A DNA stretch of 34,772 bases, from the NCBI GenBank assembly GCA_030765205.1, contig JAVCDB010000050.1, positions 1 through 34,772 of the forward strand, read 5' to 3'. Positions within the stretch are counted from its first letter, which is position 1. Each line of letters opens with the position of its first letter. The position numbers and the translations under genes are program-made. Below the pieces are notes generated by a model. The model did not search any database, was not told the origin of the DNA, and saw only the letters and a program-made list of their open reading frames with translations. This DNA comes from Candidatus Aadella gelida (GTDB lineage Bacteria; Omnitrophota; Gorgyraeia; Tantalellales; Tantalellaceae). This document shows positions 51 to 28,967 of this stretch, in pieces.

Positions 51-1496
51 TTACATATTCGGAAGATTGGTTTCCCCCATAAGGAATCTGTCAATAAAAT
101 GTGCTGCCTTGCGCCCCTCTGATATGGCCCAAACAATTAAGGACTGACCGCGTCTCATATCTCCCGCTGAAAAGACCTTTTCCACGGAAGTTTTTAGATC
201 CTCTCCCGTTTTGACATTTCCTCTCTCGTCAAGCTTAACGCCCAAATCACTTAAGAGTCCTTCGGGCGCAGGATGCAGAAAACCTAAAGCAAGAATTATA
301 AGATCCGACTCTATCTCAAAAGTGCTTCCGGGAATCTCTATCATTACAGGACAGGAATCCTTGGGCCCATTAATAAATTCAACTCGTGAACATTCAAGTT
401 TCTTAACCGCACCATTTTCACCAATAAATTTTTTGGTAAGTATTGACCATTCCCGCTCTGATCCTTCTTCATGACTGGAAGAAGTTTTAAGCATTAAAGG
501 ATATGTGGGCCACGGATACTCTTTGGTCCTACATTCTTCGGGTCTTGACATAATCTCTATCTGCATAACACAAGATGCGCCTTGGCGGTTAGCTGTACCG
601 ACACAATCCGAACCCGTATCTCCCCCACCTATAACTACGACTTTTTTTCCGGAAGCGTTGATCTCGTTTTCTGCATTTACGGGTGTTCCTGATACCTTAA
701 TATTGCTCTGAATAAGATAATCCATGGCAAAATGTATTCCGCTGAGTTTTCTGCCTTCAACAGAAAGGTCCCTCGGCTTACGAGATCCTCCAGCAAGACA
801 GACGGCGTTATATGTCTTCATTAACTCTTTTGCTTTGTAATCGGATCCTACATTAACAGATGTCTTGAATTCTATTCCTTCATCTTCCATTATTTCAATA
901 CGTCTATCAAGTATCCATTTCTCCAATTTAAAATCAGGAATCCCGTACCTCAGTATTCCTCCTGCTTTATCATACTTCTCAAAAACAGTAACATCATGAC
1001 CGGCTTTATTAAGTTGCATAGCACAGGATAATCCTGCAGGACCGGAACCTACAATAGCCACTTTTTTATCTGTACGGACCATAGGTTGCTCGGGAGCTAT
1101 CATCTTCTTTTTAAATGCATATTCTATTATGCCAAGTTCATTTTCTCTTATGCTTATCGCATCGTCGTTTATACCAAGAACACATGCATGTTCGCAAGGT
1201 GCAGGACAAATCCTACCGGTTATCTCAGGAAGATTGTTGGAAGCGTTTAAAAGCTTAAAAGCTTTTTCCCAATGCCCCTCCGCCATAAGATCATTCCATT
1301 CCGGAATATAATTACCTATTGGACATCCCCAATGACAGAAAGGCGTGCCGCAATCCATACATCGCTCAGCCTGATCGAGAGACTCGTCTTCCTTACGCAG
1401 AACGGAGACATGTTCATAGTCTTTAACCCTTTCACATACAGGTCTATATCCCCCGTCTTGACGCTTACCTTTTAAAAAACCTTTAGGATCACCCAT
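51..1496 (-). CDS. gltD: Glutamate synthase small subunit (NADPH-dependent, FAD and Fe-S binding)
   Basis: 481 aa; N-terminal Cys motifs (CMDCGTPFCHWGCP, CPAPCEHACVLG), GSGPAGL dinucleotide-binding motif, VIGGGDTGSDC; overlaps the gltB stop. Confidence 0.96.
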   Translation of the reverse strand: MGDPKGFLKGKRQDGGYRPVCERVKDYEHVSVLRKEDESLDQAERCMDCGTPFCHWGCPIGNYIPEWNDLMAEGHWEKAFKLLNASNNLPEITGRICPAPCEHACVLGINDDAISIRENELGIIEYAFKKKMIAPEQPMVRTDKKVAIVGSGPAGLSCAMQLNKAGHDVTVFEKYDKAGGILRYGIPDFKLEKWILDRRIEIMEDEGIEFKTSVNVGSDYKAKELMKTYNAVCLAGGSRKPRDLSVEGRKLSGIHFAMDYLIQSNIKVSGTPVNAENEINASGKKVVVIGGGDTGSDCVGTANRQGASCVMQIEIMSRPEECRTKEYPWPTYPLMLKTSSSHEEGSEREWSILTKKFIGENGAVKKLECSRVEFINGPKDSCPVMIEIPGSTFEIESDLIILALGFLHPAPEGLLSDLGVKLDERGNVKTGEDLKTSVEKVFSAGDMRRGQSLIVWAISEGRKAAHFIDRFLMGETNLPNM

Positions 1497-4400
1497 CTGT
1501 TTCCTCCAAAAGACCTAGGTCAGCTTCAACTTTTCTGCTTTCAAGTATACGTTTATACTCTACCGGCAAAACTTTAATAAACTTTCTTGACCCCTTTTTA
1601 AGATCTTTAAGAACCTTATCGGCACTTCGGCTTTTGGTGTATTGTTCATAATTGCGCAGCATATTATATATAGTGGTTATGTCGTCTTCTTTCAGTCTTT
1701 CAAGTTTTACCATATCAAGATTACATCTTTCTTTAAAATCACCATATTCGTCATATACGTACGCTATCCCGCCGGACATCCCCGCAGCGAAATTTTTCCC
1801 GGTTTTTCCAAGTACCACAACTCGTCCGCCTGTCATATATTCACATCCGTGATCCCCAACGCCTTCTACTACGGCATAAAGTCCTGAGTTCCTTATACAA
1901 AAACGTTCTCCTGCTACTCCACCTATGTAAGCTTCTCCGGATATTGCGCCGTAAAAAGCCGTGTTTCCTATGATTATATTGTCTGATGGACTATACTCGG
2001 CCCCTTTTCCTGAATGTATTATTATTTTGCCTCCGCTCATGCCTTTACCCACATAGTCGTTAGCCATTCCGCTAAGCTCGAATGTTATTCCTTTTGTCAA
2101 GAATGCTCCAAAACTCTGCCCGGAAACACCGGTAAATCTGCAGTAAATAGTGTCAGTTGGCAGCCCTCTCTCTCCCCATGTCTGGCAAACCTTACCGCTT
2201 AGCATCGCACCTACTGACCTATTGAAATTCTTTATATTAAGATCGATCTCCACTTTTTTAGCTGTTTTTATAGCCTCTTCTGAAAGCTTTATAAGTTCGA
2301 GGTCTAGTACCTTATCTATAGCATGATCCTGAACTGACACGCACCTAGAAGAAGTGCCTTCGGGAACTTTCGGCCGGTATATTATTTTTGAAAGGTCCAG
2401 TCCTTCGGCTTTTTGTGGAACAATTTCCCTGTTCTCTTCCAGAAGATCCGTCCTTCCTATCATATCGTCTACTGTACGTATACCTAACTCAGCCATTATT
2501 TCCCGCATTTCACGAGCAATAAATTTCATGTAGTTGACAATATAACTAGGCCTTCCTGCAAACCTTTTTTGGAGCATCTCATCTTGAGTAGCTATTCCCA
2601 CAGAACAATTGTTAAGATGACAATGGCGCAACATCACACATCCCAAAGTTATAAGAATAGCCGTTCCAAACCCGAATTCTTCAGCTCCGAGAAGTGCAGC
2701 TATTGCAACGTCTCTGCCTGTTCTCATCTGTCCGTCGGTCTGGAGCCTAACACGTCCGCGCAGTCCATTCAAAAGAAGAGTCTGATGAGTTTCAGAAAGT
2801 CCAAGTTCCCACGAAAGACCCGCATACCTTATAGAACTTCTTGGAGAGGCGCCTGTCCCTCCGTCGCCTCCTGAAATAAGTATCATATCGGCATGTCCTT
2901 TAGCTACCCCTGCTGCTACAGTACCGACACCCATTTCGGAGACAAGTTTAACACTTATGCGTGCTGAAGGATTAACATTTTTAAGATCGAATATAAGCTG
3001 CGCTAAGTCTTCTATAGAATATATGTCATGATGCGGCGGGGGCGAGATTAAAGTCACGCCCGGAGTTGTATACCGAGTCCTTGCTATTCTGGCGCTAACT
3101 TTATGTCCCGGGAGCTGTCCTCCCTCACCGGGTTTAGCACCTTGGGCGATCTTTATCTGTATTTCATCAGCGTTGACCAGATAATTAGTTGTAACTCCGA
3201 ATCTACCCGAAGCTATTTGTTTTATGGAGCTCCTTGCCGAATCTCCATTAGGGAAAGGAGTGAATCTTGCAGGATCTTCCCCGCCTTCACCTGTATTTGA
3301 TCTTGCTCCAAGGCGGTTCATAGCAATAGCAATAGCTTCATGAGCACTGCGGCTTATTGACCCAAGACTCATGGCTCCTGTAACAAAACGTTTTACTATT
3401 TCTTCTTCTGATTCTACCTTATCTATAGATATTGGTTTCGTTTTTCTGAATTTTAAAAGACTTCTTATTGTTGTAGGATTATCTGATTGATCATTTATCA
3501 GTCCCGCAAATTCTTTGTACCTTTTGTAATCATTGTTCCTTACAGAATCCTGGAGAGCCGCTATACTTTCAGGGTTCCAGAGATGAAATTCCCCGTCTCT
3601 TTTCCATTGATAAATCCCTCCGGTCGGGAGAATGTCCTGTTCCCTGCCGCCCCTTTCAGGATAAGCTTCTTTATGCTGTTTAATTGCTTTAGCAGCTATC
3701 TCTTCTATCCCTATTCCACCTATCCGGGAAATTGTGTGAGTGAAATATTTATCGATAACCTCGTCGCCAATCCCCAGAGCTTCGAATATCTGAGCACCTC
3801 TATAACTCGAAAGAGTTGATATACCCATCTTAGATAGAACTTTTAAGATGCCTTTTATCACGGATTTATTATAATTCTCAAGGGCATGTGTTAGATCAGG
3901 TCCGACTTCTCCTTCTTCCTTTAAATATTCTATGGCTCTATATACAAGATAAGGATTAACGCAATCAGCACCATATGCCGAAAGAAGAGCAAAATGATTG
4001 ACCTCTCGGGGTTCTCCGCTTTCCACTATTAAGCTGATTTGAGAACGTATAGCTCTTTTTACAAGATGGTGATGCACAGCGCTTACTGCTAAAAGAGCAG
4101 GCAACCCGGCGCTCTCCTTATTCACTCCTCGGTCCGAAAGTATTATAAAAGAGTATCCCTGCTCAATAGCAAATTCAGCTTCAAAACATACTCTTTCAAG
4201 AGCTTCAGTAAAGTCTTTAGATGAGGTGGGCTTAAAAAAAGTATATATGACTTTTGTTTTAAACCCGTTAACTTTTATATTCTTTATAATGTCGAGTTCT
4301 TCATTGGTAAGTATAGGCCTTTGAACCCTTAGCTTGTGACAATGTTCCGGCCCGTCTTTTAATATATTCTTACCTGATCCTATATAGTTATCAGTGCTCA

Positions 4401-6021
4401 TTACCAGTTCTTCTCTTATGGGATCTATGGCCGGATTTGTCACTTGAGCAAAAAGCTGTTTAAAATGATCATATAGCATTTGCGGGTTTTTAGATAAAAA
4501 CGCATGCGGAAGATCATTCCCCATTGACCCTATAGGCTCTTTACCGGTTTCAGCCATAGGCTTTATTATGAGATTAAGATCCTCGCGGGTATATCCAAAA
4601 GCTTTAAGGTTCGGGAAAATATCCAGATCTTTTTTTATATTTTCACCGGTATGGAGAAGATCGTCGAGCTCTACCATATGCTTCTTATTCCACTCACCAT
4701 ACGGTCTTTCTTCGGAAAGGGTCTTTTTGATCTCTGCGTCGTCAATTATCCGGCCTTCTTCGGTATTTATATACAGCATTTTCCCCGGTTCTAATCTTCC
4801 GGAATGCACTATTTCTGAAGGCCTAATATCCTGGACACCAACTTCCGAAGCCATAATAACTGTTCCGTCTTTCGTAACGATATACCTTGCCGGACGCAGT
4901 CCGTTCCTATCAAGTATCGCACCAATATTCGTCCCGTCAGTGAAACCTATAGCTGCCGGACCGTCCCACGGTTCCATCAAACATGCGTGATATTTATAGA
5001 ATTCCTTAAGCCCTTCTTCCATAACAGCATCCTGTTCCCATGCTACGGGAATAAGCATCATCATGGCATGCGCAAGCGAACGTCCGGAAAGATTGAGAAG
5101 TTCGAAAACATTATCAATAATAGCGGAATCGCTTTTATTCTCAACTATGACAGGTTTTATTTTTGTAATATCATTACCGAAAAGATCGCTCGCAAGAAGC
5201 CTCTCTCCGGAGCGAAACCAGTTTATATTACCCCTCAAAGTATTTATCTCACCGTTATGGGCCAGAAATCTAAAAGGTTGAGCAAGATCCCAAGTTGGAA
5301 ATGTGTTTGTGCTATAGCGCGAGTGCACCAAGACAAGTGCACTTTTCACCCTCTCATCACACAGGTCTTTGTAATACAATCCAACCTGAGATGACATAAG
5401 AAGACCTTTATAGCTAACTGTCCTGGAAGATATATTGGTGATGTAAAAAAAACTTTTTTGCCCGATCTCCGAAGCCTCTATCTGCTTCTCTATCCTTCTT
5501 CGTATGACGTAAAGCCTGCGTTCAAAAGCAAGTCTTTCTTTTATGCTTTTATTACAACCTATTACGACCTGTTTTATTCTTGGCTGCGTTTCCCTTGCGG
5601 TCTCCCCAATTATCGCCCCATCAACAGGAACGTCTCTCCATCCCAAGAGAGTTTGTCCTTCTTCTTCTATTATTTCAGAAAAAATAGCCTCACACTTTTC
5701 TCTGTCCTCATCAAGCGTAGGCATAAAGATTATCCCGGTACCATATTTTCCTTCTTCAGGAAGAGTTATCCCGATATCAGAATATACATCTCTATAGAAC
5801 TCGTGCGGTATCTGCAGCAAAACCCCGGCGCCGTCACCTGTTTTAGGATCTGCTCCTACAGCGCCTCTATGGCTCATCCTTTCAAGAATTTCGATCCCTT
5901 TCTTGACTATATTATTGGACCTCTCCCCATTAATATTACAGACAAACCCCACCCCACAGCTGTCATGTTCGAAGCTGGGATCATAAAGTCCCTGTTTTTT
6001 CGGAAAATGTGTATGTTTCAT
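1489..6021 (-). CDS. gltB: Glutamate synthase large subunit
   Basis: 1510 aa; N-terminal nucleophile amidotransferase (HDSCGVGFV), FMN domain (GGDGGTGASPRSSIRYAG), C-terminal GXGXG beta-helix (SGKVCQTWGERGLPTDT... GGVAGERFCIRNSG). Confidence 0.97.
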   Translation of the reverse strand: MKHTHFPKKQGLYDPSFEHDSCGVGFVCNINGERSNNIVKKGIEILERMSHRGAVGADPKTGDGAGVLLQIPHEFYRDVYSDIGITLPEEGKYGTGIIFMPTLDEDREKCEAIFSEIIEEEGQTLLGWRDVPVDGAIIGETARETQPRIKQVVIGCNKSIKERLAFERRLYVIRRRIEKQIEASEIGQKSFFYITNISSRTVSYKGLLMSSQVGLYYKDLCDERVKSALVLVHSRYSTNTFPTWDLAQPFRFLAHNGEINTLRGNINWFRSGERLLASDLFGNDITKIKPVIVENKSDSAIIDNVFELLNLSGRSLAHAMMMLIPVAWEQDAVMEEGLKEFYKYHACLMEPWDGPAAIGFTDGTNIGAILDRNGLRPARYIVTKDGTVIMASEVGVQDIRPSEIVHSGRLEPGKMLYINTEEGRIIDDAEIKKTLSEERPYGEWNKKHMVELDDLLHTGENIKKDLDIFPNLKAFGYTREDLNLIIKPMAETGKEPIGSMGNDLPHAFLSKNPQMLYDHFKQLFAQVTNPAIDPIREELVMSTDNYIGSGKNILKDGPEHCHKLRVQRPILTNEELDIIKNIKVNGFKTKVIYTFFKPTSSKDFTEALERVCFEAEFAIEQGYSFIILSDRGVNKESAGLPALLAVSAVHHHLVKRAIRSQISLIVESGEPREVNHFALLSAYGADCVNPYLVYRAIEYLKEEGEVGPDLTHALENYNKSVIKGILKVLSKMGISTLSSYRGAQIFEALGIGDEVIDKYFTHTISRIGGIGIEEIAAKAIKQHKEAYPERGGREQDILPTGGIYQWKRDGEFHLWNPESIAALQDSVRNNDYKRYKEFAGLINDQSDNPTTIRSLLKFRKTKPISIDKVESEEEIVKRFVTGAMSLGSISRSAHEAIAIAMNRLGARSNTGEGGEDPARFTPFPNGDSARSSIKQIASGRFGVTTNYLVNADEIQIKIAQGAKPGEGGQLPGHKVSARIARTRYTTPGVTLISPPPHHDIYSIEDLAQLIFDLKNVNPSARISVKLVSEMGVGTVAAGVAKGHADMILISGGDGGTGASPRSSIRYAGLSWELGLSETHQTLLLNGLRGRVRLQTDGQMRTGRDVAIAALLGAEEFGFGTAILITLGCVMLRHCHLNNCSVGIATQDEMLQKRFAGRPSYIVNYMKFIAREMREIMAELGIRTVDDMIGRTDLLEENREIVPQKAEGLDLSKIIYRPKVPEGTSSRCVSVQDHAIDKVLDLELIKLSEEAIKTAKKVEIDLNIKNFNRSVGAMLSGKVCQTWGERGLPTDTIYCRFTGVSGQSFGAFLTKGITFELSGMANDYVGKGMSGGKIIIHSGKGAEYSPSDNIIIGNTAFYGAISGEAYIGGVAGERFCIRNSGLYAVVEGVGDHGCEYMTGGRVVVLGKTGKNFAAGMSGGIAYVYDEYGDFKERCNLDMVKLERLKEDDITTIYNMLRNYEQYTKSRSADKVLKDLKKGSRKFIKVLPVEYKRILESRKVEADLGLLEETDG

Positions 6022-6042
6022 CTTTTATCTGCTCTTTTAGAG

Positions 6043-6079
6043 AAAAAAAAGCCCCTAGAACAATCTTATTCTAGGGGCT
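6043..6079 (-). terminator. Intrinsic terminator/attenuator in the gltB leader
   Basis: Minus strand AGCCCCTAGAA-TAAGATTG-TTCTAGGGGCT (perfect 11-bp stem, 6050-6079) followed by a run of T; lies between a consensus promoter and gltB. Confidence 0.9.
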
Positions 6080-6087
6080 TCTTTGCC
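6076..6087 (-). promoter_or_regulatory. Candidate ANTAR-type hexaloop hairpin in the gltB leader
   Basis: Minus strand GGC-AAAGAA-GCC (loop A1, G4); its 3' GCC overlaps the 5' base of the terminator stem. Confidence 0.65.
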
Positions 6088-6097
6088 TTGTATAATG

Positions 6098-6126
6098 ATA
6101 TTAACACCCCTCATTTGTCCTGTCAA
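6098..6126 (-). promoter_or_regulatory. Sigma70-type promoter of gltBD
   Basis: Minus strand TTGACA (6121-6126), 17-nt spacer, TAATAT (6098-6103). Confidence 0.85.
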
Positions 6127-6144
6127 GCTTAATTATATGGACTT

Positions 6145-6846
6145 TCAAGCTTTTATGATATTTTCAAAATTCTCGCACATTCTTTTCACATTAATGCTTA
6201 AGTTATCCTTTTTATCATGATAATGGCTCATTATTCTTTCTCTTTTAGCCCTTAAAGTCTCTTCACGACTATTCTGATATTCCAGTGTCCAATCATCTAT
6301 CATGCGAGCTGTCATCTCCGGATGAAACTGCAGACCATAGGCATTATTTCCGATCCTGAAGGCTTGATTCCGACAAGCCTCAGAAACTGCTAATAACGTT
6401 CCCCCGCTGGGTATACCGAAAGTATCCTGATGCCACTGAAACACATCTATCTCTTTGCCCAAACCCCTAAACAACGGATCTTCTTCCCCTTCCCCGGTAA
6501 GTTTGACGGAGGAAAAACCTATTTCCTCTTCTCTGGCTTTAGTAACCTTTGCCCCAGAGGCTTTAGCTAAAAGCTGCGCGCCTAAACATATACCCAGAAA
6601 CGGTACTTTTTCATCCAATACCTTTTTGATAAAGGTATCTTCATCTTTAAGATAGGGATACTTATCTTCTTCATAAACATTCATAGGCCCGCCAAGAATA
6701 ATCACGCCTTTTATGCCATTAAGCATATCAGGCAAAGAATCGTTACGACCAAGCTCGACCGTAACGATTCCATATTCCTTTTTGTCAAAATATTGTCCTA
6801 TTAGTCCGGGACTTTCCGAATCAATGTTTTTTACACAGAGTATCAT
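6145..6846 (-). CDS. Class I glutamine amidotransferase (GuaA N-terminal-like)
   Basis: Nucleophile elbow GICLGAQLL, GLQFHPEMT His/Glu; start placed at the internal Met MILCVKN (6846) just after the P-II stop. Confidence 0.85.
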   Translation of the reverse strand: MILCVKNIDSESPGLIGQYFDKKEYGIVTVELGRNDSLPDMLNGIKGVIILGGPMNVYEEDKYPYLKDEDTFIKKVLDEKVPFLGICLGAQLLAKASGAKVTKAREEEIGFSSVKLTGEGEEDPLFRGLGKEIDVFQWHQDTFGIPSGGTLLAVSEACRNQAFRIGNNAYGLQFHPEMTARMIDDWTLEYQNSREETLRAKRERIMSHYHDKKDNLSINVKRMCENFENIIKA

Positions 6847-6848
6847 AA

Positions 6849-7196
6849 TTATCCTATTGCCGCGCCGCCTTTTTCTCCGGTCCTTATCCTTATACATTCC
6901 GGAAGATCCAGCACAAAGATCTTCCCGTCTCCTATATTTCCCGTTCTAGCGCCTTCTATAATAGCATCTATGGTAGGATCAACAAACTCTTTGTTGACCG
7001 CTATTTCTAGCCTAATCTTTTTTAAAAGATTTACTTCATGTACTACGCCTCTATATGTCTCGGTATAACCTTTCTGCTGACCACATCCCAATGCATTCGT
7101 CACCGTCATCTTATGTACATCCGCATCAAATAAAGCTTTTTTAACATCGGGTAATTTGTGCGGCTGTATCATCGCTATTATGAGTTTCATATCCAT
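6849..7196 (-). CDS. glnB: P-II family nitrogen regulatory protein
   Basis: [15 protein letters not shown]..., [13 protein letters not shown]-loop, [12 protein letters not shown] signature; immediately downstream of amtB. Confidence 0.95.
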
Positions 7197-7208
7197 ACCT
7201 CCTTAATT

Positions 7209-8552
7209 TTATTGTGTAGTGAAAACCTGGAATCCCGCATAGGCTTCCATTCCATGTTCACTGATATCAAGTCCTTTAAGTTCCTCTTCCCTCGATACTC
7301 TCAAACCTATAACTTTGTTTATTACCTGAAAAATTATTGTCATACCAACAGCTACAAAGCTTACAACTGCTACGGCTCCTAATGCCTGCACTCCGAGTTG
7401 ACTGAATCCTCCACCCTGGAGCAAGCCGTTATTAGCAAGCCCTAAAGCTTTATGACCAAATATCCCTACAGCAAGCGTGCCCCATACTCCATTGACCAGA
7501 TGTACGGGAACCGCTCCAACAGGATCGTCGATTTGTATTTTATCGAGAAAGAATGTTGCCGCAACAACCAGTATCCCGCCTATAGCACCTATAGCTAGTG
7601 CCTCTACAGGAAGAACATATGCGCAAGGCGCGGTGATCGCAACCAATCCCGCCAAAGCTCCGTTCATCGTCATTGTTAGATCGGGCTTGCCGCATCTTTT
7701 CCAGGCATAAAACATTGCTACAAGCGCTCCGCTAACTGCTGAAAGATTCGTATTTATAGCAACTTTCGCTATAAGACTACCGTCACCTACGGATAAAGTA
7801 GATCCAGGATTGAAACCGAACCAGGCAAACCATAGTATTAAAGCTCCCAATGATGCAAGTGCCATTGAATGCCCCTCTATTGCATTCGCAGAACCATCCT
7901 TATTAAATTTACCTATCCTAGGTCCAAGTATCATGGTTCCCACTAAAGCTGCGGTGCCTCCCACAGAATGAACCACGGCGGATCCGGCAAAATCACTAAA
8001 CCCGAGATTGGCTAACCAGCCTCCTCCCCAGATCCAATGTCCAACAAAAGGATATATGGCCGCTGATATCAGAAATGAATATATTAAATACGCCTTAAAC
8101 TTCATCCTTCCGGCTATTCCTCCGGCAACTATAGTAGCTGCAGCTCCGCAAAAAACCGCATGAAAGAACCATTCGGCTTCAAGTGGTATATGCCCTGTGT
8201 GTGAGGCTCCTGTAAGAGCCCATCCTGTCCATCCCATAAAACCATTCCCTGAACCAAACATTATGGCATACCCGAAAATAAAAAATCCCATGGATGCCAT
8301 GCAAAAATCCAGAAAATTATTCATCAGCACGTTACATACATTCTTAGTCCTAAGAAGTCCCGCCTCAAGCATACCGAACCCTGCCTGCATAAGAAATACC
8401 ATAAATGCGGCTATCATAACCCATAAGGTATCAACACCGGCATTACTGGCATATTTTACCGCATCGTCAGCCATGACATCCCCGCTAAAACCGGCTATAA
8501 ACAGTATGCCTGCAAACAACATCGTAACCTTTTTTAACATCTTTGTTTTCAT
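7209..8552 (-). CDS. amtB: Ammonium transporter (Amt family), copy 1, with N-terminal signal sequence
   Basis: 447 aa; multiple TM helices, ...FVGHWIWGGGWL..., VHSVGGTAALVG, DDPVGAVPVHLVNGVWGTLAVG. Confidence 0.96.
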   Translation of the reverse strand: MKTKMLKKVTMLFAGILFIAGFSGDVMADDAVKYASNAGVDTLWVMIAAFMVFLMQAGFGMLEAGLLRTKNVCNVLMNNFLDFCMASMGFFIFGYAIMFGSGNGFMGWTGWALTGASHTGHIPLEAEWFFHAVFCGAAATIVAGGIAGRMKFKAYLIYSFLISAAIYPFVGHWIWGGGWLANLGFSDFAGSAVVHSVGGTAALVGTMILGPRIGKFNKDGSANAIEGHSMALASLGALILWFAWFGFNPGSTLSVGDGSLIAKVAINTNLSAVSGALVAMFYAWKRCGKPDLTMTMNGALAGLVAITAPCAYVLPVEALAIGAIGGILVVAATFFLDKIQIDDPVGAVPVHLVNGVWGTLAVGIFGHKALGLANNGLLQGGGFSQLGVQALGAVAVVSFVAVGMTIIFQVINKVIGLRVSREEELKGLDISEHGMEAYAGFQVFTTQ

Positions 8553-8581
8553 TCCATGACCTCCATTTGCTTTACTCTTTA

Positions 8582-9919
8582 TTATTCCGTAGTAAAGATC
8601 TGAAACCCGGAATATGCTTCCATACCATGCTCATCTATGTCTAGACCTTTCAGCTGTTCCTGTTCTGTAACTCTAAGTCCCATAACCTTCCTTATTATGA
8701 GAAACAAGAGAAAAGCAGAACCGAAAACCCAGGCAAATACCGACAACACACCTGTGAGCTGTGTCATAAATAAAGATGTCCCCCCGCCGTGCAGAAAGCC
8801 ATTTGTGCCTCCATAAGCGGACTCGGCAAAGAGCCCTACCGCAAGCGTACCCCATGCTCCGCATACACCATGCACGGAAACCGCACCTACAGGGTCATCT
8901 ATATGTAGTTTCTTATCTATGAAATCAACACTAAAAACTACCAATGATCCTCCTATAGCACCTATAATAATAGCGCTAAACGGGGATACATTAGCGCACC
9001 CGGCTGTTATAGCTACGAGCCCAGCCAAAGCTCCGTTGAGTGACATACTGATGTCGGGTTTGCCGTATTTAATCCAAACGGTCACCATTGCAGCTATCGA
9101 ACCTGCCGCTGCCGCTAGATTGGTTGTTACGGCAATAACAGCAATACTAAGATCAGTCCCGGCTGTTGTGCTTCCAGCGTTGAACCCGAACCATCCGAAC
9201 CACAGGATAAAAACACCTAATGCAGCAAGAGGTATATTGTGTCCCGGAATAGCATTAGATGAACCGTCCCTATTATATTTACCAAGTCGCGGACCGAGGA
9301 GTATTGCTCCGGCTAAAGCAGCCCATCCTCCTACAGAGTGCACTACAGTAGAACCCGCAAAATCTATCATCCCTTTTGACGATAACCATCCCCCGCCCCA
9401 GATCCAATGTCCAACAACGGGATATATAAGAGCGGTTATAAACACGCTATATGCCAAATATGATTTAAACTTCGTCCTTTCGGCCATAGCACCCGAAACT
9501 ATAGTCGCGGCTGTGGCGGCAAATACTGTTTGGAACATCCAGAAAGTGAACTGCCATAACCCTTCCTGAGTACTCGGATCTCCGGTGCTCAGAAAAAACC
9601 CTGTTTTTCCGAATAGACCGAAGGCGCTCGCGCCGAACATAATACCGAACCCTATAGCCCAATAAGCTATAGATCCTACAGAAAAATCCATAAGATTTTT
9701 CATCATGATATTACATGCGTTTTTTGCTCTGGTAAAACCCGTTTCTACCATAGCAAATCCGGCTTGCATGAAAAATACAAGAAAGGCCGCAAGTAATGTC
9801 CACATAGTATTTATAGCAACTGCGTTACTAGACGCAGTAGGTTCATCTGCCCACAGAACTGCCGGTAAACATAACATCATCACCGGAAAGATCTTTAATA
9901 TTTTTTTAAATAACTTCAT
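8582..9919 (-). CDS. amtB: Ammonium transporter (Amt family), copy 2, with N-terminal signal sequence
   Basis: Same Amt signatures; AGGAGGAGATATG supports start MKLFKKILK at 9919 rather than the ORF start at 9946. Confidence 0.95.
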   Translation of the reverse strand: MKLFKKILKIFPVMMLCLPAVLWADEPTASSNAVAINTMWTLLAAFLVFFMQAGFAMVETGFTRAKNACNIMMKNLMDFSVGSIAYWAIGFGIMFGASAFGLFGKTGFFLSTGDPSTQEGLWQFTFWMFQTVFAATAATIVSGAMAERTKFKSYLAYSVFITALIYPVVGHWIWGGGWLSSKGMIDFAGSTVVHSVGGWAALAGAILLGPRLGKYNRDGSSNAIPGHNIPLAALGVFILWFGWFGFNAGSTTAGTDLSIAVIAVTTNLAAAAGSIAAMVTVWIKYGKPDISMSLNGALAGLVAITAGCANVSPFSAIIIGAIGGSLVVFSVDFIDKKLHIDDPVGAVSVHGVCGAWGTLAVGLFAESAYGGTNGFLHGGGTSLFMTQLTGVLSVFAWVFGSAFLLFLIIRKVMGLRVTEQEQLKGLDIDEHGMEAYSGFQIFTTE

Positions 9920-9955
9920 ATCTCCTCCTCTTCTAATCGGACTCAAAGGATAACC

Positions 9956-10771
9956 TTAATATGCGAACCCTACGCTTATTCCTCCATAGAACTCATTGCT
10001 CTGTGCGTCGCTATACGTATCCCGGTCAAGTATTACTGAGTAGGCCACTTGAGGTGTTACCGTGAAATATTCGAGTACAGGTATAGAGACATCCGCAGTT
10101 ATAAGCATATCACTCCACCCATGCTGAGTCGTCCATTGCTCATAATTGTACGCAAGCGACGTGCCTAGAGAAGCTTCTATTCCATTACCAAGATCAAAGG
10201 TATGTCCTCCCCCGAACTGCAGGTATGACCCGTGCCCTGCTTCTACATCCCAGTACCAGGTGAAAAATGGCTGAAGAAGTACATTATAAGAGACGCCGAG
10301 CGCAGTCTCATGCGAATAGCTACCGTCCGCTTTTAGGTCAAGATTTGGGAACGTGTAAAATGTATATCCCGTAGTTATGGATAATGGATCGAATATCTCC
10401 GAATCCCCCATATTCATCTTTTCTAAGGCGTCACCAACATTAAATTCGTAGGAAGCGGTATAATCAAGTTCGGTAAATTCCTGATACCTGCCGCTATCTA
10501 CAGTCTTATCTTTCGCTAAACTGTAATTGCCCCATATATCAAAAGTAAATCCATCTTTGGAAAGGGACCCGTCAACCTGCATCACGGGTTCATTACCCAG
10601 ATTTTGGCCTCTCCAGATATATTTTGTCAGAAACGTTGTCGACAGCGACACATCCGGCACCCATTCATCTTTTTCGGGAAGCCATTCCTCTCCAAAAACA
10701 TTCATCCCCGGAAGTACTAACATAACGCTTAATAGCAGGAACATCATATACTTAACAGTTTTATAAAACAT
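9956..10771 (-). CDS. TorF-like putative outer-membrane porin
   Basis: Signal peptide; VSLSTTFLTKYIWRGQNLGNEPVMQVDGSLSKDGFTFDIWGNYSL beta-strand pattern; ends in aromatic Tyr (VGFAY); GGAGAG Shine-Dalgarno before ATG 10771. Confidence 0.75.
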   Translation of the reverse strand: MFYKTVKYMMFLLLSVMLVLPGMNVFGEEWLPEKDEWVPDVSLSTTFLTKYIWRGQNLGNEPVMQVDGSLSKDGFTFDIWGNYSLAKDKTVDSGRYQEFTELDYTASYEFNVGDALEKMNMGDSEIFDPLSITTGYTFYTFPNLDLKADGSYSHETALGVSYNVLLQPFFTWYWDVEAGHGSYLQFGGGHTFDLGNGIEASLGTSLAYNYEQWTTQHGWSDMLITADVSIPVLEYFTVTPQVAYSVILDRDTYSDAQSNEFYGGISVGFAY

Positions 10772-10799
10772 TTCTCTCTCCTTTTTTTGATTCAAAATA

Positions 10800-10838
10800 A
10801 AAAAACCCTTTTATGAGACTAAAAGTCTTATAAAAGGG
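10800..10838 (-). terminator. Intercistronic intrinsic terminator between the ANTAR gene and the porin-amtB operon
   Basis: Minus strand CCCTTTTATAAGACT-TTT-AGTCTCATAAAAGGG (one mismatch) followed by TTTTTTTATTTT. Confidence 0.88.
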
Positions 10839-10870
10839 CATCTATGCCTCTTCCCGTTCTTCTCTTGAAC
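10837..10870 (-). promoter_or_regulatory. Candidate ANTAR two-stem-loop element upstream of the porin-amtB operon
   Basis: Minus strand P1 GTTC-AAGAGAA-GAAC (10856-10870), 7-nt linker, P2 GGC-ATAGAT-GCC (10837-10848; loop A1, G4); P2 overlaps the terminator stem. Confidence 0.7.
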
Positions 10871-10895
10871 CGTTCTTATTGTGCTATCTTAGCAG

Positions 10896-11603
10896 TTATC
10901 TACCATTACTAATCTCAGACGAGAGTATTATCGCCTTTGCGATCTCTTTCATAGAGACTCGTCTGTTCATACTGGCTTTTCTTAATGTCTTAAAAGCCTC
11001 CTCTTCAGAGAGGTTCTGATCCTTCATTAAAATCCCTTTAGCTTTTTCGATCTTTTTACGGCTCTCCAGTTCTTCTTGGATAACCTTAGTTTTCACTATA
11101 AGCTCAGTATTTTCTATTGCCACTGCCGCTTGATTGGCCACAGCACTTAAAAGATCTATATCACTTTTAGTGAATTTATAAGATTCAACGGTATACACGT
11201 TAATGACCCCTATAACCTTATCGTTGACCAGCATGGGAACACTTAACATTGATACTAGTCCTTCCTTTTTGGCCAAAGATCTCTGTTTATACCGCTTCTC
11301 CTCTATAACATCGTCTATAACTATAGGTTTTTTCTCTTTAGCCACCAAACCAACGATACCTTCACCAAACTTTATCGATCTCTCTTCAAGATAATCTTTA
11401 CTCATAGCTTGAGTGGCTCTTATCTTAAGCTCACCTGTTATCTCATCAAGCAGCCATACCGCGCATATTTTAGCACCCATAACATTTGCTGTTAGATTCA
11501 CAATGAGCTTCAGTATATCCTCAAGATAAAGATCGCTTGTTATAGCCTTGCTTATCTTCGTCAATGTTTCAAGATATTGTTTGTCAGCTTTTTTCTTGGG
11601 CAT
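10896..11603 (-). CDS. GAF-ANTAR domain RNA-binding antitermination regulator
   Basis: N-terminal GAF domain (LSVPMLVNDKVIGVINVYT... AVANQAAVAIENTEL); C-terminal ANTAR (KKIEKAKGILMKDQNLSEEEAFKTLRKASMNRRVSMKEIAKAI). Confidence 0.92.
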   Translation of the reverse strand: MPKKKADKQYLETLTKISKAITSDLYLEDILKLIVNLTANVMGAKICAVWLLDEITGELKIRATQAMSKDYLEERSIKFGEGIVGLVAKEKKPIVIDDVIEEKRYKQRSLAKKEGLVSMLSVPMLVNDKVIGVINVYTVESYKFTKSDIDLLSAVANQAAVAIENTELIVKTKVIQEELESRKKIEKAKGILMKDQNLSEEEAFKTLRKASMNRRVSMKEIAKAIILSSEISNGR

Positions 11604-11620
11604 TTTTCACCTTTTCTTAT

Positions 11621-13717
11621 TTAAAGAAACAACATTTCAGCATATGAAGGAAGCGGCCATATCTCATACGGCAAGAGCCCTTCAAGTTTATCTATCGGCC
11701 TACGCAGAGCATTCATCGCCGATATCATTTCTTTAGAATCCTCTTTTTCTATAGCTGTTTCAAGTTTCTTTGTATACTCAAGTGCTTTTTCTGTTTCCGA
11801 AGATACCTCTTTTAAGAGCTCCATGGTCTGCGGCAGTTTACATCCCGAGGCATCGGCTACATCGGATATTGTCCCGGCTAAAGTCGACTGATATTCCAAA
11901 GCAACAGGGATCACCTCTGTCTTGACCATAGTAAGAGCTACATCCGACTCTATTTTGATAATAGCATGATACTGCTCTTCATATATTTCATTCCTTGCCG
12001 CAAATTCAACTTTAGAAAGCACTTTGTGTCTCTCGAAAAGCGCAATGTATTCTTCGTTCTTTTTAACGGCATCTAAAGCCTCAGGCGTGTTCTTAAGATT
12101 AGGAAGACCCCTTTTAAGGGCTTCTTCATGCCAAGCTTCTGTATAGTTATCTCCGTTAAAAAGTATTTTCTTATGTTTTTTTACTATATCTTTCAGTACA
12201 CCCTGAAGCACCTCGTTAAAATCTTTACCTCCTTTAACTTCAGTTTCAAGCTTTGTACATATTTCATCTAAAGAATCCGCCACTATTGTGTTAAGTACGA
12301 CATTTGCACCTGCGCAGCTTTGATTTGAACCTACTGCTCTAAATTCAAACTTGTTACCAGTAAAAGCAAAGGGTGAGGTTCTATTCCTATCTGTCACATC
12401 TCTCGGAAGTGACGGAAGCGATGTAACTCCGAGTTCTAACGGAGCCGTTTGTTTGGAGCTCTTAGCACCACCCTGCTCTATCTGTTCTATAACGTCATAC
12501 AGCTGATCCCCGAGAAATATAGACAGTATAGCGGGCGGCGCTTCATTTGCGCCTAGCCTATGGTCATTCCCGGCACTTGCCACTGCAGCTCTAAGCATAG
12601 GTGCATAAGTATCAACAGCTTTCATGAGAGCACATATCATAGTAAGAAATTTTGCGTTCTCATGAGGATTATCCCCTGGCGTTAACCAATTCTTGTCATC
12701 CGGACCTACAACCGACCAGTTATTATGCTTTCCCGAACCGTTAACTCCCGCAAACGGTTTTTCATGCAGGAGGCAGACAAGATCATATCTTTCAGCAACC
12801 TTTTTTAATATCTCCATAGTCATCATGTTGTGATCAACTGAAAGGTTCTGCTCCTCAAAAACAGGGGCCATCTCAAACTGCGCCGGACAAACTTCATTAT
12901 GCCTTGTCTTTGATGGTATACCCATTATCCAAAGTTCATGATCAAGTTCGGCCATAAATGACATTACACGTGTTTTTATGGCTCCAAAATAATGGTCATC
13001 CATCTGCTGATGTTTAGCAGGAGTTTTACCGAAAAGCGTACGGCCAGTCTGTAGAAGATCTAAACGAGCTTCATAAAAATCCTTATCCACCAAAAAATAT
13101 TCCTGTTCGGGTCCCAAGGTGGCATATGCTCTCTTGTTTTTAGAATCTATCCCAAAAAGTTCAGCTAATCTGCATACCTGTTTTGACAAAGCGGCAACAG
13201 ATCGCAGTAGAGGCGTTTTCTTATCCAAGGCTTCCCCATGATAAGAATAAAACGCCGTTGGGATACAAAGTGTAGCTCCGTTTTCGCCTTCTTTAATAAA
13301 AGCCGGAGAAGTAGGATCCCATGCTGTATACCCGCGAGCTTCAAAAGTCGCCCTTAATCCTCCCGACGGAAAACTCGATGCATCCGGTTCACCCTTGATA
13401 AGTTCTTTCCCGGAGAATTTAAGCATTACTCCGCCTTCAAGATCCGGTTCGATAAAAGAATCATGTTTTTCAGCGGTAGACCCGGTAAGAGGCTGGAACC
13501 AATGAGTAAAATGCGTGGCTCCTTTAGACAAAGCCCATGTCTTCATAGCATCCGCAACCTCATCCGCTATACTCGCGTCGATACAGCCTCCCTCTCTTGT
13601 AGCAGCTACAAGATTCTTGTACGCTTTATCCGATAGATAATTACGCATGGTTTTAAGATTAAAAACGTTCTCACCGTAATAATCAGCAACTGTTTGAATA
13701 TCTGTTTTACCTGTCAT
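11621..13717 (-). CDS. glnA: Type III glutamine synthetase (GSIII / GlnN)
   Basis: 698 aa; FTHWFQPLTG, GGLRATFEARGYTAWDPTSPAF, GPEQEYFLVD, NEVCPAQFEMAP, GKHNNWS, RNRTSPFAFTGNKFEFRAVGSNQS; AGGAGGG Shine-Dalgarno. Confidence 0.97.
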   Translation of the reverse strand: MTGKTDIQTVADYYGENVFNLKTMRNYLSDKAYKNLVAATREGGCIDASIADEVADAMKTWALSKGATHFTHWFQPLTGSTAEKHDSFIEPDLEGGVMLKFSGKELIKGEPDASSFPSGGLRATFEARGYTAWDPTSPAFIKEGENGATLCIPTAFYSYHGEALDKKTPLLRSVAALSKQVCRLAELFGIDSKNKRAYATLGPEQEYFLVDKDFYEARLDLLQTGRTLFGKTPAKHQQMDDHYFGAIKTRVMSFMAELDHELWIMGIPSKTRHNEVCPAQFEMAPVFEEQNLSVDHNMMTMEILKKVAERYDLVCLLHEKPFAGVNGSGKHNNWSVVGPDDKNWLTPGDNPHENAKFLTMICALMKAVDTYAPMLRAAVASAGNDHRLGANEAPPAILSIFLGDQLYDVIEQIEQGGAKSSKQTAPLELGVTSLPSLPRDVTDRNRTSPFAFTGNKFEFRAVGSNQSCAGANVVLNTIVADSLDEICTKLETEVKGGKDFNEVLQGVLKDIVKKHKKILFNGDNYTEAWHEEALKRGLPNLKNTPEALDAVKKNEEYIALFERHKVLSKVEFAARNEIYEEQYHAIIKIESDVALTMVKTEVIPVALEYQSTLAGTISDVADASGCKLPQTMELLKEVSSETEKALEYTKKLETAIEKEDSKEMISAMNALRRPIDKLEGLLPYEIWPLPSYAEMLFL

Positions 13718-13821
13718 TTTTCCCTCCTGTATTTATTTATAATGTATATTCTACCAACAACACGAATTTACGCAATCTTTTAATGCTCTGATCATAAAAA
13801 ACATGGTTCGGGTCTCCAAAT

Positions 13822-13858
13822 AAAAAAAAAGACGTTCTTCCCCGCCAAACCGCAACGT
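13822..13858 (-). terminator. Second (proximal) candidate intrinsic terminator in the glnA leader
   Basis: Minus strand ACGTT...AACGT stem followed by nine T residues (13822-13830); short stem, so weaker than the others. Confidence 0.5.
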
Positions 13859-13862
13859 ATGA

Positions 13863-13878
13863 AGGACATCTTTATCCT
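13863..13878 (-). promoter_or_regulatory. Candidate ANTAR-type hexaloop upstream of the second glnA leader terminator
   Basis: Minus strand AGGAT-AAAGAT-GTCCT (5-bp stem with one G-U pair, hexaloop A1/G4). Confidence 0.45.
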
Positions 13879-13891
13879 GTTCTTTTGAAAT

Positions 13892-13920
13892 AAAAAAAGG
13901 CGTTCCTTTCCCAGGACGCC
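13892..13920 (-). terminator. First (distal) intrinsic terminator in the glnA leader
   Basis: Minus strand GGCGTCCTGGGAAAGGAACGCC followed by TTTTTTTATTT. Confidence 0.85.
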
Positions 13921-13954
13921 TCTATGCTTTTCTTTCGAACACTTCCCCGTGTTC
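13918..13954 (-). promoter_or_regulatory. Candidate ANTAR two-stem-loop element in the glnA leader
   Basis: Minus strand P1 GAACAC-GGGGAA-GTGTTC (perfect 6-bp stem, hexaloop, 13937-13954), 9-nt linker, P2 GC-ATAGAG-GC (13918-13927) overlapping the terminator stem. Confidence 0.65.
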
Positions 13955-13960
13955 ATAGAA

Positions 13961-13988
13961 CATTTTACATACTCACAATTTTTTGTCA
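13961..13988 (-). promoter_or_regulatory. Candidate sigma70 promoter of glnA-ANTAR
   Basis: Minus strand TTGACA, 16-nt spacer, TAAAAT, immediately upstream of the P1 hairpin. Confidence 0.7.
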
Positions 13989-14022
13989 ATACTTTTTTTG
14001 CATTAAATTTTTTGCATTAAAG

Positions 14023-15202: not shown

Positions 15203-16531
15203 TTACACGAACTTTACGTCCAGCATATGCGCAGAGCATGAGATACAAGGATCGTATGCTCTTACAAGCATTTCTGAGAGTAGGGTTATTTCTTCTTTCG
15301 TCTTATCAAGATTCTCCGGTATGAGTTTTTTCATATCGAGATCTATATTCGAAAGGTTCTGATTCGTTGGTATAGAACAATTTGCGTTCTTCACAATACC
15401 TTTCTCATCCACCGTATACTCATGCACAAGCATGCCACGCGGGACTTCTACCAGCCCTGCTCCCGTACCGGCTTTGACCGAAAAACCCGCTTTTTCGTCA
15501 TCTTTTGGCCATGAAGTAACCACTTCGCTGTAATCGATCCCTTTCTCAAGAAAATGATCAATTATACGAATAGAGTCATATGTACAATGCGCTATCTCTA
15601 TAACCTGAGCAACAGTGTTCATGAACGAATTGTAACACGGCACTTTAAACCCTAATGCTTCGGCTACACCTTTAGCTTCATCGTTTAGTTTATCATAGTT
15701 GATATTGATCCTAGCCAAGGCCCCAACCATATAGGAATCTCTTTTATTCTTCGAATGTTTTGCCGTTGAATGTTCGGCATGGAACTCATGCACAACTTCC
15801 TTATAGTCACGAGGTTTAACCGTTTTATCTATATCAGTTGTCACAAGGTCTCCTTCATAGAACGCGTATTCATCAGGATGAGTTAGAGCCACGTATTCGG
15901 TTTCACGTTCGAATTCAGGAAGGGTTAAAGACTTAAAGATTTCGACTGTAGCATTAAGATCATCAACTTGGGAGAGAAGAATACTTTTCATCTCTTCAAG
16001 TTCCTTTTTTGTCGGCAGTTTTGTCCATCCCCTCACCACAAGACTTATAGGATGAGTATGACGTCCCGCAAGAATCGTGCAAAGATCGTTATACTGCTTC
16101 TTCATTCTTAGAGCTCTTAATACTACTTCTTTGTGTGTTTTCACTAAAGGCAAGACACTAGGCGCTCCTAGAGCATCCGGAGCCACCAGAAAACAAGCAT
16201 GCAAAAGATGGCTGTCAAGCGTCTCATAATGTAATATTAATTTCCTTAAAAGTTTAGTCTGTTCGCTTACCTCAAACCCTATTGCGTCTTCAGAAGCCTT
16301 TATCGAGGCTAATGAGTGACCGGTAGAGCATATCCCGCATATGCGAGATGTGATATGTTGCACTTCGAAGAGAGATCTATCTCTTACCATGGCCTCGAAG
16401 AAACGTGGAGCTTCAACTATCTCAAGCTGACATTTCTCAACCACACCTTCCTTAATATTGATTACAATATTTCCATGCCCCTCAACGCGGGTTACATGTT
16501 CAACGTTTATGTTTAGGTCTTTTTTACTCAT
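15203..16531 (-). CDS. [NiFe]-hydrogenase large (alpha) subunit, group 3-type
   Basis: RVEGHGNI, L1 motif RICGICSTGH, L2 motif DPCISCSAHMLDVKFV with cleavable C-terminal extension. Confidence 0.95.
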   Translation of the reverse strand: MSKKDLNINVEHVTRVEGHGNIVINIKEGVVEKCQLEIVEAPRFFEAMVRDRSLFEVQHITSRICGICSTGHSLASIKASEDAIGFEVSEQTKLLRKLILHYETLDSHLLHACFLVAPDALGAPSVLPLVKTHKEVVLRALRMKKQYNDLCTILAGRHTHPISLVVRGWTKLPTKKELEEMKSILLSQVDDLNATVEIFKSLTLPEFERETEYVALTHPDEYAFYEGDLVTTDIDKTVKPRDYKEVVHEFHAEHSTAKHSKNKRDSYMVGALARININYDKLNDEAKGVAEALGFKVPCYNSFMNTVAQVIEIAHCTYDSIRIIDHFLEKGIDYSEVVTSWPKDDEKAGFSVKAGTGAGLVEVPRGMLVHEYTVDEKGIVKNANCSIPTNQNLSNIDLDMKKLIPENLDKTKEEITLLSEMLVRAYDPCISCSAHMLDVKFV

Positions 16532-17289
16532 TATTTTTCCGCCTCCAGTTTACATGTGTTATATAGATCAAATTTCTTCTTTAATTCTTCCACTGTATAT
16601 CCATACTTTTTAAGAATATCCATCTGGCCTTCTTCCGGATAATTGTCGAGAAATCCGCGGCATCCATAGCAGGTATTTCCCCAACTTATGCACCACGCAT
16701 CACATCCCCCGCGTGTTACCGGCCCCATACATACCTGCCCTTTTTCAAACAAGCATACGTTTTCTTTAAGTTTGCACTCAACACATACTGCGTATTTAGG
16801 CGGAGTATATCCTTTGCCCAAAAGTATTGATTTAAGAGCTTTAACTACTTCATCTGTACTAACAGGACAACCATGTATGTAATGATCGATCTTAACAACT
16901 TGATCGACGGATCTAGGCTCTCCGGCATCTAACGGAAATTCACGTCCCGCATACACAATATCTTTAGCTTCTTTCTGTGTATACTTCTTTCTAAGACCAT
17001 TCACTCCGCCTATAGTAGCACATGAACCATATGCTATGAGTATAGACGCGTTCTCCCGTATCTTCTTAAGTCTATCCTCATCCTGTTTTCTGGTTATGGA
17101 CCCTTCGATGAAAGCTATGTCATAATCATCGCTGCGTTCTGAAATAGCTTCACGGAAGTTCACGATATCACAATGTTCGAGAACGCCTAGAAACGCTTCA
17201 TTCAAATATGTCACCTGCAACTGACATCCCTCACAACACGCAAAATCAAAAAACGCTATACGTACCTTTTTTTTAGTATCCTTACTCAT
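16531..17289 (-). CDS. [NiFe]-hydrogenase small (delta) subunit
   Basis: FDFACCEGCQLQVTYL, AYGSCATIGG, IHGCPVS, CVECKLKENVC, GCDAWCISWGNTCYGCRG. Confidence 0.94.
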   Translation of the reverse strand: MSKDTKKKVRIAFFDFACCEGCQLQVTYLNEAFLGVLEHCDIVNFREAISERSDDYDIAFIEGSITRKQDEDRLKKIRENASILIAYGSCATIGGVNGLRKKYTQKEAKDIVYAGREFPLDAGEPRSVDQVVKIDHYIHGCPVSTDEVVKALKSILLGKGYTPPKYAVCVECKLKENVCLFEKGQVCMGPVTRGGCDAWCISWGNTCYGCRGFLDNYPEEGQMDILKKYGYTVEELKKKFDLYNTCKLEAEK

Positions 17290-18152
17290 AAGGCTTCCTC
17301 CAATCCTTTTATCTCTTCATATGTGAACGTAGGACCATCCTGACAGACATATTGATCGTTAATCTGACAGTGCCCGCATTTACCTAAACCGCATTTCATC
17401 CTTCTTTCTAAAGAAAGTACTATCTGTTTGTCAGGCAATCCCTTCTTGATAAGTTCCTGAATAACAAACTTATACATAATAGGAGGCCCGACTACTACCG
17501 CATACGTCCTATTAACATCTATATCTACTCCGGGAATAAGAGTGGTTATAACCCCTACATTACCTTTCCATTCCGGATCTGCCTTGTCTACCGTACACGC
17601 ATAATTTATATCCGTTGACTTCTGCCAACTCTCAATTTCTTCCCTAAACAGCCTGTCTCCCGGCTGTTTACATCCCAAAAGGATGGTAACCTCTCCGAAA
17701 TCCCGTCTTTTATCCATAACGAAATTTATAAGTGATCTTAGCGGTACTATACCTAACCCTCCCGCAACCAGCATAAGATCGTTACCTTTCATATCGTCTA
17801 TAGGGAAAGGTTTCCCAAAAGGCCCTCTGACCCCTACTTTATCGCCTTCATTGAGAGCTGTAAGTGCGGCCGTGAAAACTCCAACTTTTCTAACACATAT
17901 TTCAAAAGTGTTTTTGTTGGTTTTCGTAGGTGACGATGATATCGAAATAGGCGCCTCTCCTATACCAAATATAGAAAGTTGAACGAATTGTCCGGGAAGA
18001 TCCCCTAACTTACGATCACCTTCGAGTTTTATCTCAAAGAATTTCTCGTTCTCCGTCATCTGCTCTGTCCTAACAATAGTTCCCTCCATAGGGGAATATA
18101 GAGGATTAACATCTATCGTTTTTACTCGATCTTTATTATTGCAATTACACAT
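17286..18152 (-). CDS. Hydrogenase FAD/NAD(P)-binding (gamma) subunit, sulfhydrogenase/DHOD-like
   Basis: GQFVQLSIFGIGEAPISISSSP, VRGPFGKPFP, MLVAGGLGIVPLRSLI, C-terminal [2Fe-2S] CGLGKCGHCQINDQYVCQDGP. Confidence 0.93.
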   Translation of the reverse strand: MCNCNNKDRVKTIDVNPLYSPMEGTIVRTEQMTENEKFFEIKLEGDRKLGDLPGQFVQLSIFGIGEAPISISSSPTKTNKNTFEICVRKVGVFTAALTALNEGDKVGVRGPFGKPFPIDDMKGNDLMLVAGGLGIVPLRSLINFVMDKRRDFGEVTILLGCKQPGDRLFREEIESWQKSTDINYACTVDKADPEWKGNVGVITTLIPGVDIDVNRTYAVVVGPPIMYKFVIQELIKKGLPDKQIVLSLERRMKCGLGKCGHCQINDQYVCQDGPTFTYEEIKGLEEAL

Positions 18153-21256: not shown

Positions 21257-21257
21257 A

Positions 21258-22343: not shown

Positions 22344-22344
22344 A

Positions 22345-22554
22345 TTATTTGTTCCCCTTAAAAAAATCTATAGTGAACTTAGCCTTTTCCTCACTGACTT
22401 TCTGTAAAGCATATCCCGCATGTACCAGCACATATTCCCCTACCTCGGGTTCAGAAATAAGATCCAAAGCTACATCCTTTTTAATCCCCGATAGCTCTAT
22501 CGTAGCTATCTTGCCTTTTATTTCAGTTATCTTCCCGGGTACGCTCCAGCACAT
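22345..22554 (-). CDS. hypC: HypC/HybG/HupF family hydrogenase chaperone
   Basis: 69 aa; MCWSVPGKI... VGEYVLVHAGYALQKVSEEKA. Confidence 0.95.
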   Translation of the reverse strand: MCWSVPGKITEIKGKIATIELSGIKKDVALDLISEPEVGEYVLVHAGYALQKVSEEKAKFTIDFFKGNK

Positions 22555-22580
22555 ATCTCTCCTTGGCCATCAGAGATGGC

Positions 22581-22689
22581 AGACCATAGACTGTTGACTA
22601 TTGACTTTTTTAATATTTTTCGAAGAAAAATATTGGTTTACTATCCAATTTACACATCGGTCATTCTCTGTCTATAGTCAATAGTCTCC
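22581..22689. repeat. Intergenic element with inverted heptamer-repeat arms (element B)
   Basis: Left agaccat-agactgt-tgactat-tgacttt; right arm reverse complement agactat-tgactat-agacaga; inner hairpin aatattttt-cgaag-aaaaatatt; shares acatcggtcattctctgtc with element C. Confidence 0.85.
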
Positions 22690-22691
22690 TA

Positions 22692-27844: not shown

Positions 27845-27885
27845 CCCCATCTTCTTCCACCATTCACCAATCAACTAGCAGTCTC

Positions 27886-27911
27886 GTAGCCGGGGCTTAA
27901 ACCCCGGCTAC
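27886..27911. repeat. Perfect inverted repeat, REP-like
   Basis: gtagccgggg-cttaaa-ccccggctac; 10-bp GC-rich stem, 6-nt loop, between two minor-pilin genes. Confidence 0.85.
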
Positions 27912-28955: not shown

Positions 28956-28967
28956 AGAATTTTTATA

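Follow-up and report, generated by a model that had tools for sequence, protein, structure and literature searches.

A predicted ANTAR-type antitermination regulon for nitrogen assimilation in Omnitrophota, including leaders with a single hexaloop hairpin at the predicted transcription start

Antitermination of nitrogen genes by ANTAR proteins is known from NasR/nasF and AmiR/amiE, which each control one operon and have sensor parts other than GAF; NasR, like the protein described here, combines sensor and ANTAR domain in a single protein. The EutV/eutP system of Enterococcus faecalis uses a dual hexaloop antiterminator, in which the hexaloops carry G at position 4 (G4) and the 3' arm of the hairpin overlaps the base of a terminator (PMC3369931, PMC8934654). 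In vivo, EutV is reported to depend on both hairpins (PMC3369931); the minimal binding motif has been proposed to be one hexaloop (PMC8934654). The former study (Ramesh 2012; PMC3369931) also predicts ANTAR RNAs 5' of nitrogen genes in Desulfotomaculum and Pelobacter, using a search definition that required two hairpins. The locus described here belongs to Candidatus Aadella gelida of the Omnitrophota, an uncultured and little-known phylum, and lies on a complete 34.8-kb contig (the window) of a 1.59-Mb metagenome-assembled genome (MAG). It encodes a type III glutamine synthetase (GSIII, glnA), a GAF-ANTAR protein, a porin-like protein, two ammonium transporters (Amt), P-II and glutamate synthase (GOGAT). 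Hairpins in its leaders, and related ones elsewhere in the phylum, are interpreted from their sequences, with a probability of about 0.86, as ANTAR-type antitermination elements forming a nitrogen-assimilation regulon.

A preliminary description of this DNA had pointed to hairpins before gltB, the porin-amt-amt-glnB unit and glnA, and all three were found letter for letter on the minus strand, to which all leader and gene coordinates of this locus refer. The hairpin next to the terminator is termed P2 and the one preceding it P1. The leader of gltB contains the P2 hairpin GGC-AAAGAA-GCC (6076..6087) and an overlapping terminator (6051..6078) followed by U8 (6043-6050). The porin-amt-amt-glnB unit has P2 GGC-ATAGAT-GCC (10837..10848), the position of which is kept in relatives, and an overlapping terminator (10806..10838) followed by U7; sequence and fold place a P1-like hairpin with a 7-nt loop, GTTC-AAGAGAA-GAAC (10856..10870), before it in the ANTAR-porin intergenic region. 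The glnA leader starts with P1 GAACAC-GGGGAA-GTGTTC (13937..13954), a G1/G4 hexaloop hairpin with counterparts of the form GCAC(RNNGNN)GTGC in two relatives (L032, L034). It is followed by P2a GC-ATAGAG-GC (13918..13927), which has 2 bp and a flanking A.G, and by the stem-loop of terminator T1 (13899..13920, from the fold) with U7. A relaxed scan identified a second antiterminator hairpin in the same leader, P2b AGGAT-AAAGAT-GTCCT (13863..13878), with 5 bp and an A1/G4 loop, overlapped by the stem-loop of terminator T2 (13831..13870) and its U-tract. P2b is a fourth window element and was absent from the preliminary description. In all three leaders noted there the 3' arm forms the 5' base of an intrinsic terminator with a U-tract, as had been stated, and the combination of A1 and G4 holds for all four P2 loops of the window. 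The default fold of the gltB leader is the terminator (-26.2 kcal/mol, compared with -14.7 kcal/mol with P2 forced); forcing P2 removes the basal pairs beside the U-tract, and termination should therefore weaken.

The overlap of hexaloop and terminator is not due to chance. A descriptor comprising an ANNGNN hexaloop, a stem of at least 3 bp and a 3' arm inside a terminator matched 71 times in 1.3 Mb of ANTAR-containing loci, compared with 3-5 times in shuffled sequence. P2a of glnA, with its 2 bp, fails this descriptor; the GC-RNNGRR-GC form with flanking A.G recurs in the glnA leaders of relatives, several of which repeat the tandem order of the window: a P1 whose loop has G1 and G4, a 2-bp P2a and its terminator, then P2b and a second terminator. 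P2b shows compensatory changes between the window (GGAT/GTCC), L034 (GTTC/GAAC) and L177 (AAGAT/GTCTT).

Covariation was examined with a covariance model, R1, in which the P2 5' arm and loop are unpaired sequence and the terminator is the sole structure. Since R1 imposes no pairing on P2, its non-seed matches test the P2 helix. Among the 68 non-seed matches at E<0.1, 67 close P2 with C-G or U-G. At the second pair, 37 have GC, 27 have AU and 4 have a mismatch; the 64 paired cases compare with 48.9 expected from column composition, a count not reached in any of 5000 permutations (p<2e-4, a value that is optimistic because the sequences are related). The third pair is GC in 55, AU in 5 and mismatched in 8. 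Over all 150 matches, 78% of P2 cells are paired, falling to 25-55% when the cells are slid. The loop has G at position 4 in 144 matches and a purine at position 1 in 148 of 150 (A in 128, G in 20). A lack of compensatory covariation in related genomes had been named beforehand as evidence that would count against the proposal; the second P2 pair does covary.

The genome encodes a single ANTAR protein, the proposed antiterminator (10896..11603; PF01590, PF03861). The ANTAR domain of this protein scores 76-79 bits against PF03861, for which the curated cut-off is 27.3, and aligns with EutV (6WSH, E 6e-12), Rv1626 (1S8N), NasR and AmiR. Eleven EutV residues contact RNA, and Tyr164 stacks on G4 (PMC8934654). 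Nine of the eleven are identical in the window protein (R142, K143, K147, K149, E160, R168, M172, N173 and R175); Y164 is conservatively changed to F, and R177 is lost to S, so that nearly all EutV contacts are kept. The sensor here is a GAF domain, in contrast to the phosphorylated REC domain of EutV. This half is nearest to the GAF domains of PtsP and NifA (3trc, E 3e-17; NCBIfam PtsP 68 bits and NifA 64 bits, both below the full-length cut-offs of those models). In PtsP (EI-Ntr) and NifA the GAF domain is fused to a PTS enzyme and an AAA+ activator, respectively, and here to ANTAR. The GAF domains of PtsP bind glutamine (PMC4848567) and those of NifA bind 2-oxoglutarate (PMC8219145); the likeness hints at the signal but is no evidence of what it is. 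In the MAG of one relative, G008, GAF-ANTAR matches of identical score (327.1 bits) occur on nine contigs (C43, C71, C227, C263, C318, C359, C372, C471 and C510), reflecting either a mobile or amplified gene or an assembly artefact.

The top three R1 matches in the window's own genome are the leaders of gltB (E 3e-7), porin (3e-5) and FNR-gltA (0.003). The last is a fifth element, outside the window at C7:36726-36765, and is followed by an FNR-like subunit and an NADPH-dependent glutamate synthase gltA (TIGR01316, 593 bits); an element 5' of an FNR-like gene is also present in L042, L087 and L191. The proposal of a self-contained riboregulon is thus correct in part only, as this element lies on another contig. 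At a permissive cut-off of E<=1, R1 has a match in 37 of 39 genomes. At E<=0.02, elements were found in 63 of 110 Omnitrophota genomes with ANTAR compared with 6 of 36 without it (Fisher p 1.8e-5). Clear R1 matches, among those examined, precede gltB, GSIII, GlnA-I, amtB, carA, carB, glutamate dehydrogenase (GDH), FNR-gltA, a glutamine-dependent NAD synthase and a permease fused to P-II. The permease is a 625-aa amino-acid permease with a C-terminal P-II domain (L061:9786-11663). The GDH genes behind the same element are those of L042, L043, L044 and L057, where a single antiterminator may serve both GDH and GS/GOGAT, which would be unusual because the two are often regulated oppositely. One leader (L178:148-385, G012:C228) contains four tandem P2-terminator units about 62 nt apart with a hexaloop in each, and two high-scoring elements fall outside the nitrogen theme, before the genes for ATP synthase subunit a (L170) and a Na/Pi symporter (L172). 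Weak R1 matches lacking a nitrogen gene (L169, L175, L184, L189, L195 and L202) were set aside as chance terminators, and where R1 also matches the opposite strand of an element (e.g. window 6040-6084 +), it is reading the terminator palindrome in reverse.

A sigma-70-like promoter lies within 100 nt of 47 of 102 elements, compared with 10.5 in shuffles. Among promoters scoring at least 10.5, the -10-to-P2 distances form two clusters, with 10 leaders at 6-14 nt (0.04 expected) and 22 at 19-33 nt (0.1 expected). For the longer class, P1 was sought in 26 promoter-bearing leaders (score of at least 10, -10-to-P2 distance 17-42 nt), and an R..G.. hexaloop hairpin was present between the -10 box and P2 in 19 of them compared with 1.1 in shuffled sequence; hairpins with loops lacking G4 were not enriched in that interval (5 compared with 3.7). 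An earlier scan of all descriptor elements at a high energy cut-off found P1 in 8 of 71, a low figure explained by the exclusion of 3-bp AAC/GTT stems and by the many internal elements. P1 starts 5-7 nt past the -10 box in 15 of the 19 leaders that have it. Bacterial transcripts start about 7 nt past the -10 box, and P1 therefore begins at the +1 predicted from the promoter pattern. The glnA leader of the window belongs to this arrangement, with a predicted -35 box TTGACA (13984..13989) and -10 box TAAAAT (13962..13967) separated by a 16-bp spacer (consensus scan, combined score 11) and P1 starting about 7 nt past the latter.

Leaders of the shorter class have P2 at the predicted +1, which leaves no place for P1 on a transcript from that promoter. 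The gltB leader of the window is of this type, the consensus scan giving a -35 box TTGACA (6121..6126) and, after a 17-bp spacer, a -10 box TAATAT (6098..6103) 10 nt 5' of P2, which would start at about +4 of the predicted transcript; farther upstream of this element no P1 was found either. Four of the ten P1-less leaders precede gltB (window, L176, L182 and L039), and the others precede or belong to amt (L183, L089), FNR-gltA (L042), a GATase_2 domain protein (L083), NAD synthase (L114) and L170. A tentative reading, held at slightly less than even odds, is that these are single-hexaloop ANTAR antiterminators, in which P2 would be transcribed first (about +1 to +5) with no recruiting P1 and a GAF-ANTAR dimer would antiterminate on one hexaloop; the window gltB leader and the nine others are assigned to the class with the same reserve. 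The porin-amt-amt-glnB unit had been described as having its own leader, and its hairpin and terminator are present; the consensus scan found no separate promoter, and the element may therefore act inside the glnA-ANTAR transcript.

Several observations weigh against an ANTAR-type regulon. None of the four window elements has two hexaloop hairpins of 3 bp with A1/G4, since P1 of glnA has G1, the porin loop has 7 nt and gltB has no P1, and the earlier wording of paired stem-loops fits only the first glnA element, where P1 is a hexaloop. Dual hairpins with a P1 of at least 3 bp and an A1/G4 hexaloop do occur in relatives (e.g. L065:8102, L056:6936 and L185:367). The gltB class lacks P1, and EutV is reported to require it in vivo (PMC3369931). 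Both glnA elements score weakly with R1 (E 1.2-1.9), the kinship of the sequences bears on the permutation test as given above, and the R1 seeds were picked on P2 pairing, which is offset by counting non-seed matches. Element-like matches also occur in six ANTAR-negative MAGs, perhaps from MAG incompleteness or other terminators.

Three other explanations were weighed. The elements could be ordinary intrinsic terminators or attenuators not read by ANTAR, the hexaloop hairpin being a by-product of GC-rich terminator bases; every element does overlap a strong terminator, and the porin element directly follows the end of a gene, a natural site for a terminator. This is very unlikely, given that non-seed matches show covariation of column 13 with column 4, which is outside the terminator, that loop G4 is nearly invariant, that P1 hairpins carry the same loop at a fixed place, and that the elements are restricted to nitrogen genes and co-occur with ANTAR. 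It is highly improbable that the GGC-N6-GCC inverted repeats near +1 act as DNA, as operators bound by a nitrogen transcription factor, rather than as RNA structures. The P2-only palindrome at the predicted +1 has a typical operator place, but the six bases between the arms are not symmetric and keep the pattern RNNGNN, every element has its 3' arm joined to a terminator, and the porin element falls within what looks like a transcription unit, with no promoter of its own. Riboswitches do exist upstream of glnA and GOGAT genes in other bacteria, which speaks for a metabolite-sensing (e.g. glutamine-sensing) element instead of a protein-dependent one; such an element is scarcely credible here, as the motif obeys the EutV hexaloop rule, its conserved part of 12-30 nt is small for a ligand pocket and no Rfam family reaches the gathering score in the window.

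The gene order on the minus strand, with Pfam families, is GSIII (11621..13717; PF12437, PF00120, PF18318), GAF-ANTAR, the porin-like outer-membrane protein (9956..10795; no Pfam match, its counterpart in L188 being PF09694), two AmtB copies (8582..9946 and 7209..8552; PF00909), P-II (GlnB/GlnK, 6849..7196; PF00543), a class-I glutamine amidotransferase (6145..6897; PF00117), the GOGAT large subunit gltB (1489..6021; PF00310, PF04898, PF01645, PF01493) and the small subunit gltD (51..1496; PF14691, PF07992). Pfam confirms the identities of GSIII, GAF-ANTAR, both Amt, P-II, the class-I amidotransferase and both GOGAT subunits. The block GSIII - GAF-ANTAR - porin - Amt - P-II - gltB is retained whole or partly in relatives, and a genome of the same family (G004) has a matching locus on a 77,050-bp contig. 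Inspection by eye showed a small open reading frame (ORF) with a Fis-like helix-turn-helix C-terminus (..GINRNTLR..) 5' of gltB in many relatives (L034, L035, L041, L057, L065, L082, L103 and L114); the window has none there. Elsewhere the window encodes a NiFe hydrogenase operon (15203-19185 and 20252-24418; large subunit, Oxidored_q6, FNR-like and Fer4_22) with maturation genes (HypE-like AIRS, and the HypF C-terminal part as a separate ORF), and type IV pilus / type II secretion genes (25937-33692; PilM-like, T2SSF, T2SSE) with a lamin-tail-domain protein in between.

The preferred reading, ANTAR control of GSIII-ANTAR, Amt/P-II and GOGAT, is supported by covariation, synteny, the RNA-contact residues and the co-occurrence of ANTAR and elements. 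By default the nascent leader would fold as an intrinsic terminator 5' of GSIII-ANTAR, porin-Amt-P-II and GOGAT. The GAF domain would sense a nitrogen/carbon metabolite, e.g. glutamine or 2-oxoglutarate, and the active GAF-ANTAR protein would bind RNNGNN hexaloops and keep P2 closed, robbing the terminator of the basal pairs beside its U-tract so that polymerase reads through. As in the EutV model, bound ANTAR would need to capture P2 before the 3' half is synthesised. The usual layout would place P1 at the predicted +1 and then P2, and the second class, including gltB of the window, would have P2 there and no P1. The circuit would be autogenous, since the ANTAR gene immediately follows glnA and has two such elements upstream of it, and the gene set suggests activity under nitrogen limitation.

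Compared with EutV/eutP, loop position 1 is A or G in Omnitrophota, the P1-less class exists, and P1, when present, starts at the predicted +1, whereas in eutP the loop base of P1 is A29, counted from the start site. The Desulfotomaculum and Pelobacter set shares the gene theme (P-II, ammonium transporters, glutamate and glutamine synthases, with several operons per genome) and belongs to other phyla. Antitermination by ANTAR proteins, the hexaloop rule and most of the targets were thus on record for other phyla in 2012; the available part of that paper makes no mention of start-site geometry, a P1-less class or Omnitrophota (PMC3369931). New here are the Omnitrophota-wide regulon, the start-site geometry and the class without P1, window gltB included, none of which was found in the literature searched, with its limited coverage. 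That literature, which covered few subscription papers, also contained nothing relevant on GAF-ANTAR nitrogen control or on ANTAR in Omnitrophota.

An uncultured phylum thus gains a predicted central nitrogen circuit by RNA antitermination, which would comprise glutamine synthetase, GOGAT, Amt and P-II here and also GDH and carAB in relatives. The leaders also bear on a question of mechanism, as two hexaloops are said to be required for antitermination by EutV, yet its structure shows binding to one at a time. Leaders with one hexaloop at the predicted +1, standing beside two-hexaloop orthologues, would offer a natural and direct test of this requirement.

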